37,545 nt of DNA, from assembly GCA_031264185.1 (NCBI GenBank), contig JAISEL010000047.1:1-37545 (forward strand), read 5' to 3'. The notes under the pieces were generated by a model. The model searched no databases and had not been told where the DNA came from. It was given only the letters and a program-made list of their open reading frames with translations. Positions 37,315-37,545 of this stretch are shown here, in pieces. How positions within the stretch are numbered: position 1 is the first letter of the stretch; every line of letters starts with the position of its first letter. The DNA is from Deltaproteobacteria bacterium (lineage in GTDB: Bacteria; Desulfobacterota; Desulfarculia; Adiutricales; Adiutricaceae). A program made the translations under genes and the position numbers.

Positions 37315-37467
37315 AAAAAAAATATTTTTTTCTTGGCAGTCAATCTGACTGGAGAGTTTGATTCGAAAAATCCGGTTTGCGGTAAATATTATTAATTTAG
37401 ATTATTTTTTATGATTTTAGTTATGAACAAATATACAGGAAATATTTCAGTTTTGATCAATCAGAGT

Positions 37468-37483
37468 TGGCATGATTATTGCT
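37468..37483 (+). promoter_or_regulatory. Sigma-54 consensus-like site abutting the CT repeat
   Basis: TGGCATGATTATTGCT matches the sigma-54 pattern TGGCAYR-N4-TTGCW, with GG at 37469-37470 and GC at 37481-37482 separated by the required ten bases. Transcription from it would start inside the CT repeat. No enhancer-binding activator is present in the window, and a chance match in AT-rich DNA is possible. Confidence 0.35.
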
Positions 37484-37538
37484 CTCTCTCTCTCTCTCTC
37501 TCTCTCTCTCTCTCTCTCTCTCTCTCTCTCTCTCTCTC
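37482..37538. repeat. 57-base CT dinucleotide repeat
   Basis: An uninterrupted run of 28 CT units plus one C ends seven bases before the window edge. It lies about 160 bp after a strong promoter. An ATG at 37472 would read MIIA followed by a Leu-Ser repeat and stays open to the edge. Another frame from 37411 or 37423 reads through the repeat into a TAA at 37543-37545. Gain or loss of units would switch frames. The edge position also raises the chance of an assembly break here. Confidence 0.95.
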
Positions 37539-37545
37539 AAAATAA

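Follow-up and report, generated by a model that had tools for sequence, protein, structure and literature searches.

CT-dinucleotide arrays as probable slippage sites of phase-variable leader reading frames in insect-gut bacteria

What is the function of a long and pure CT run located at the very end of a bacterial contig, downstream of a promoter and of several possible start codons? The window, i.e. the whole stretch of 37,545 nucleotides analysed here, is an entire contig (G000:C65) of a 4.4 Mb genome in 166 contigs, and it breaks just past such an array. The initial annotation had proposed that the array encodes the signal sequence of a surface protein starting at the ATG in 37472, and that gain or loss of CT units switches this protein. 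The numerous copies of the array in the same genome, in its deltaproteobacterial relatives and in other taxa lead us to a different answer: the array is probably where slippage occurs in a leader ORF whose phase variation controls the gene that follows.

The array of the window and its family

The window contains, at positions 37482-37538 of the plus strand, the pure CT run that had been claimed, (CT)28C, that is (CT)28.5 or 57 nt, which is far above chance. It is followed by AAAATAA (37539-37545) and by the contig end at 37545, which is deduced from the window and from its locus record L038, both ending 7 nt past the array. The region of the continuing frame and any terminator are consequently missing, and the gene switched by this copy is located beyond the contig end; an attempt to reach it by synteny through a GrpE-like neighbour gave only distant matches, in three other genomes of the genus. 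ATG codons precede the array at 37411, 37423 and 37472. The first two share a frame that meets the stop codon TAA at 37543-37545, in agreement with the initial annotation; the one from 37472 meets no stop before the contig ends. On the basis of the start-codon statistics given below, the putative leader ORF would extend on the plus strand from 37411 (or 37423) through the array to this stop (37411-37545). The announced TTGACA-17-GATAAT site is also found on the same strand at 37286-37314 (boxes 37286-37291 and 37309-37314); it belongs to a σ70-type class that is enriched upstream of the arrays, and would be the promoter of the leader transcript.

The search of the window's genome for the array alone, VCTCTCTCTCTCTCTC, yielded 41 places, all 41 preceded by a G, and its T-start form yielded 2. 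Around these places we count 43 arrays of at least 14 nt and 42 of at least 20 nt, with lengths of 22 to 88 nt. Most of them lie inside contigs with differing flanks, and arrays are also carried by the closed genome of Smac51, a pure culture from the cockroach hindgut; the assembly or adapter artefact evoked in the initial annotation is thereby ruled out. In L066, L081, L059 and L115, promoter-array units are duplicated in tandem, 120-300 bp apart, ahead of one gene. Another array (L074, G000:C53 56-109) follows GTGAGAG, is broken by AGCTAT and is devoid of the motif described hereafter; it is situated at a contig end and is perhaps a rearranged copy.

The arrays share a second feature: TGGCRY-N5-TTG immediately precedes 39/42 of them in the window's genome. 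The position weights over 40 of these loci read TTGGCA[CT][GA]-A-T-T-A-TTG and fit TTGGCAYR-N4-TTGC, which we take to be the exact σ54 (-24/-12) consensus, the -12 C being the first base of the array. TGGCAT occurs before 17 of the 42 arrays and TGGCAC before 21. In the window, the predicted σ54-type element is TGGCATGATTATTGC, at 37468-37482 of the plus strand, and the ATG in 37472 results merely from a T at the last position of the conserved TGGCAY. The same genome possesses 60 TGGCAYN5TTGC sites, as found with a pattern ending in a non-G base, of which 37 carry a long array, one carries five units, one an interrupted array and 21 none. Because the copies read the motif in all three frames, what is conserved is the DNA and not a protein sequence.

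The motif-plus-array pattern was detected in 16/37 genomes of the window's family, where the reversed pattern gave 0, in 42/195 genomes of the family to which a Treponema MAG belongs, and in 4/395 genomes from the window's phylum, 3 of the 4 belonging to the window's family. A named genome collection contains at least 109 stretches with this pattern; among the matches listed, 80 loci are distributed between Spirochaetes (46), Deltaproteobacteria (22), Desulfovibrio (3), Chitinispirillales (2), Accumulibacter (1) and six others (Rhodospirillaceae, Planctomycetota, two Desulfobacteraceae, Ca. Magnetomicrobium and Polynucleobacter). When the array alone was searched, without use of the motif, in 17 genomes of other taxa (18 loci were named for this search), 55 arrays were found in 15 genomes and TGG-N8-TTGC stood before 51/55 of them, in its strict form before 45/55. 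Since this array-only search recovers the motif, the association does not arise from the search pattern. Insect-gut Deltaproteobacteria and Treponema make up most of the carriers, and most sample codes of the array-bearing genomes presumably refer to termite-gut surveys. One of these codes, Emb289, occurs in PMC7024585. Several Treponema loci, for example L101, L104, L105, L113, L134 and L176, display a conserved AATACTCACCGCC right after the array and, at several of them, inspection by eye reveals a palindrome-like GGGGATAAATTTGTCC about 40-70 nt further downstream.

The leader frame, the terminators and the gene start

A start codon at least 40 nt upstream, in a stop-free frame into the array, is present at 34/39 loci of the window's genome (null 13.7±2.9), 19/24 loci of the delta relatives (null 7.4±2.3) and 41/49 loci of Treponema and others (null 21.2±3.6), it being understood that here and below paralogous loci are not independent and the nulls overstate significance. 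When mock positions are set 120 and 200 nt before the real one, such a start codon is seen at 6 and 14 loci versus 33 for the real position in the window's genome (n=38), 6 and 12 versus 30 in the delta relatives (n=43), and 18 and 17 versus 41 in Treponema and others (n=52). The leader ATG lies about 69-80 nt before the array, and exactly at -69 in 16/40 loci of the window's genome. Sequence statistics thus establish the leader start as a common property of the arrays, and σ70-type promoters are found upstream of the array in 25/40 (null 13.0±2.1), 22/43 (null 11.3±3.0) and 34/50 (null 7.8±2.7) cases in the three sets, many of those of the last set at a distance of 64-100 nt. The ATG of Treponema loci often follows the -10 box by 5-8 nt, in the manner of leaderless messages.

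Sister copies that possess sequence beyond the array show that one long frame does continue, and the other two frames usually stop early. This post-array frame is open over at least 50 codons at 30/36 loci of the window's genome (Markov null 6.2±2.1, maximum 12 in 300 runs) and at 14/18 loci of the delta relatives (null 3.7±1.4); the value for Treponema and others, 27/44 (null 16.1±2.9), constitutes a weak test because the reverse strand shows a similar excess (27/44 vs 13.5). In the window's genome, the excess is gone when the start is placed about 200 nt further down (9/33 vs 5.8). Substitutions after the array are distributed over the three codon positions as 232/226/263 in the largest set, of five paralogs, and as 56/48/51 and 71/66/81 in two more groups. 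The sequence of the leader peptide seems not to be under selection, and it is translation as such that would matter; in-frame indels of 9 and 18 nt in the largest paralog group agree with translation, these being two events only. A small conserved protein was also considered as a candidate, and was rejected on the even substitutions over codon positions in five paralog groups.

On the gene strand, a strict finder detects terminators at 9/36 loci of the delta relatives (reverse strand 0, null 0.8), at 9/46 of Treponema and others (reverse 3, null 2.9) and at 5/37 of the window's genome (reverse 1, null 1.4). At all 24 strict sites, which were drawn from all sets and include the loci of six non-insect records, an open frame extends beyond the T-tract (expected 11.4). 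A relaxed finder gives 42 terminator-like sites among 118 loci, a number above the null, and above the reverse strand in the window's genome and the delta relatives, reverse-strand matches being obtained too in other taxa (10/46). One frame passes 39 of these 42 sites (expected 18.5, z 7.6), and each of the 39 also has a frame that stops ahead of the hairpin. The passage through terminators is therefore a statistical property of the family. Three hairpins that were refolded have energies of -18.8 to -22.9 kcal/mol (z -3.0 to -5.2), and a separate pattern scan places terminators also at L255 and L139. A crude window-wide control found an open frame at 20/24 terminator-like sites, most probably inside genes, which makes it a poor control. 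Most loci are without visible terminator; there, attenuation is only putative, or must be of the Rho type.

The open frame often ends in a precise place. Its end falls no more than 15 nt from the next gene's start at 18/38 loci of other taxa (null 4.2±1.9, maximum 10), at 7/39 loci of the delta relatives including Smac51 (null 0.7±0.8, maximum 3) and at 3/28 loci of the window's genome (null 0.4±0.6, maximum 2). Exact ATGA overlaps occur at L104, L131, L136, L219, L224, L232 and L128, the frame of the latter being open over 613 nt. This coincidence is, to our eyes, the strongest sign that the leader would be translated and coupled to the gene. The downstream gene begins at a start codon of its own, located about 46 to 1000 nt past the array, usually in another frame than the leader, and many leaders of the window's genome are long (300-990 nt). 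The parts are seen together in the closed Smac51 genome, at L255, L256, L257 and L260.

The 28 downstream proteins identified in the window's genome comprise 11 TonB-dependent receptors, 2 TpsB/ShlB, 2 FecCD permeases and one each of an autotransporter-like protein, an acyltransferase-SGNH, a WaaY and an N6/N4 DNA methylase, the rest being mixed or unknown. TonB barrels (5), autotransporters (2), DUF1156 (2), TPS (1) and PilW (1) figure among the 38 downstream genes of the delta relatives, and FGE-sulfatases (4), Flg_new (3), BspA-type LRR, Big_2 and an opacity-type porin among the 37 of other taxa. Several of these gene classes are known as phase-variable. The genes assigned in other taxa also include a DEAD helicase, Rrf2 and KaiC, because of which some of them may not be true targets. 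In L053, a match to the D1-D4 domains of a group II intron (684-824) lies just past the acyltransferase gene. Cobalamin riboswitches accompany the arrays of a TonB-receptor cluster, five of them in L083/L084 (L084 3671-4250 and 9869-10455; L083 3470-3659) and one in L067 (1793-1990), some on the same strand and upstream of the array; they are close to few arrays and absent from the window, and the riboswitch was thus rejected as a general explanation.

A leader switch and its alternatives

The model drawn from these sequences combines the choice of a reading frame by the array and the fate of the transcript behind it. The σ70-type promoter would produce a transcript opening with a short ORF whose ATG is situated some 70-80 nt before the array. 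Ribosomes would translate about 23 codons and go on into the CT run, read as Leu-Ser repeats. For one of the three repeat-length classes, the exit frame would be open and the ribosome would continue over about 50-200 codons, through the terminator hairpin where one is present, often to stop exactly at the downstream start codon in an ATGA-type overlap; transcription would continue, translation would be coupled and the gene would be ON. For the other two classes, translation would halt soon after the array, the terminator would form or the untranslated RNA would be ended, and the gene start, devoid of a coupled ribosome, would be OFF. We thus infer, from statistics over genomic loci, slippage in living cells, anti-termination, coupling and the resulting ON/OFF effect on expression. 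In the phase switch originally proposed for the window, the slippage-type choice of frame and the transcript issued from the upstream promoter are retained, and the repeat is transferred from the surface gene to a leader ORF.

This model was established before its comparison with the pil1 and pil3 loci of Streptococcus gallolyticus, in which, according to Danne et al. 2014 (PMC3894217), GCAGA repeats are present in a leader peptide, a longer leader destabilises a premature terminator, and most cells are OFF. The resemblance is close: in both cases a tandem repeat is located in a short leader ORF ahead of surface genes (an operon in pil1) and the number of repeats sets the frame; as in pil1, a longer leader here would reach or pass an intrinsic terminator, where one is visible, and let transcription through. 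The repeat in a leader ORF with an upstream start, the frame that passes the terminator where others stop before it, and the downstream surface genes, some targets being non-surface, were all found here. Unlike the GCAGA pentamers of two pilus loci in a Gram-positive bacterium, the present repeats are CT dinucleotides, they number about 40 loci in one genome and they extend over several Gram-negative phyla; again unlike pil1, the frame often ends at the gene start and a conserved σ54 consensus precedes the array. The mechanism would therefore match a pil1-type attenuator, its novelty residing in the CT unit, the scale, the multi-phylum spread, the coupling and the consensus. No report of a CT-array leader arrangement was found in the literature searched. 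If the leader switch is correct, a mechanism encountered, in the papers found, at two pilus operons of one Streptococcus would become a regulon-wide strategy of insect-gut symbionts from several phyla, with about 40 switches in one genome acting on TonB receptors, two-partner secretion, LPS modification and DNA methylation. The ON or OFF state would moreover be predicted from the genome sequence alone, by the array length modulo 3.

Could the arrays instead belong to σ54 promoters whose start site coincides with the CT run, the leader ORF being an incidental feature? The arrays begin at the exact -12 position of TGG-N8-TTGC in nearly all copies, the position weights fit the consensus with a fixed GG/GC spacing as in σ54-dependent promoters, RpoN is encoded once in the window's genome and is present in 6/7 genomes of the genus, this one included, and the window's genome has 11 activator-domain matches. 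Nevertheless, this reading accounts neither for the start codon ahead of the array, nor for the open frame, nor for the coincidence of that frame's end with the start of the gene, for which reason it was demoted to a rival; it also leaves unexplained the σ70 promoters, mostly 64-100 nt upstream in Treponema, and an RNA begun in the array would be without the leader start codon. We consider it unlikely.

The σ54 element itself is real as a conserved sequence, and the leader switch has no need of it. Within the leader it could serve as an additional promoter or as a road-block, or it could make the repeat unstable. Unlike ordinary σ54-dependent promoters, it is followed by a long CT array that begins at the -12 C, inside a translated leader, an arrangement of which no report was found in the literature searched; the welding of this consensus to a repeat across unrelated phyla is new and is without explanation in that literature. 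It is possible, and we advance it only tentatively, that the predicted element is active and links the switch to an environmental signal, activator-driven initiation or bound σ54 polymerase at the repeat altering the slippage rate or yielding a second, phase-independent transcript. If so, the phase variation of a whole surface regulon would be controlled by a signal, and not purely random, in unrelated insect-gut bacteria.

In the sabA-type genes of Helicobacter pylori, a CT dinucleotide repeat lies within the adhesin coding sequence. These CT-repeat genes are treated in PMC2715451. The present arrays resemble them by their unit, by the surface proteins concerned and by the change of frame through slippage, and differ from them by residing in a separate leader. 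A classic intragenic switch of this type, with the array in the signal peptide of the surface protein, is what the initial annotation had read from the ATG in 37472. Some leader frames do resemble signal peptides, for example in L105, and in C83 the open frame enters the start of a TonB receptor in frame, a possible exception. However, the genes downstream of the sister copies carry their own start codons and, by eye, their own signal peptides, the motif that provides this ATG is read in all frames, and in most cases the open frame differs from that of the gene and extends no further than its start. The repeat was not found within the coding sequence of the surface protein, C83 apart, and we hold the intragenic reading to be very improbable. 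Equally improbable is a functionless mutational or assembly by-product, i.e. microsatellite expansion at TTGCTCT-seeded sites, which the frequent position of arrays near contig ends could suggest, and against which stand the arrays of the closed genome, the absence of AC/AT-type dinucleotide arrays of 22 nt in the window's genome, and the frame, terminator and gene-start statistics.

Repeat length and neighbouring repeats

The lengths of the arrays bear on the state of the leader switch. Their remainders modulo 3 (0/1/2) are 14/12/8 in the window's genome, 11/13/12 in the delta relatives and 19/13/12 in the others, and the upstream ATG is in phase with the open frame at 16/85 loci having both, below the expected one third. 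Under the model, the switches would be mostly OFF, and so would be the copy of the window, whose leader stops directly past the array. Seven pairs of distinct, near-identical copies were retained after dropping the rows that paired a locus with its own copy from another collection or that listed a pair twice; five of them differ in array length, by 4, 4, 12, 18 and 20 nt. Two arrays with identical 60 nt downstream have lengths of 56 and 38 nt.

The window also contains trinucleotide and 24-bp repeats (CAT/TCC, up to 48 copies) at 31685-31839, near the end of a minus-strand ORF (31678-33318) that has no Pfam match. At 30585-31454, an NYN nuclease domain and an OST-HTH/LOTUS domain form a fusion, next to which lie two T2SSE ATPases.
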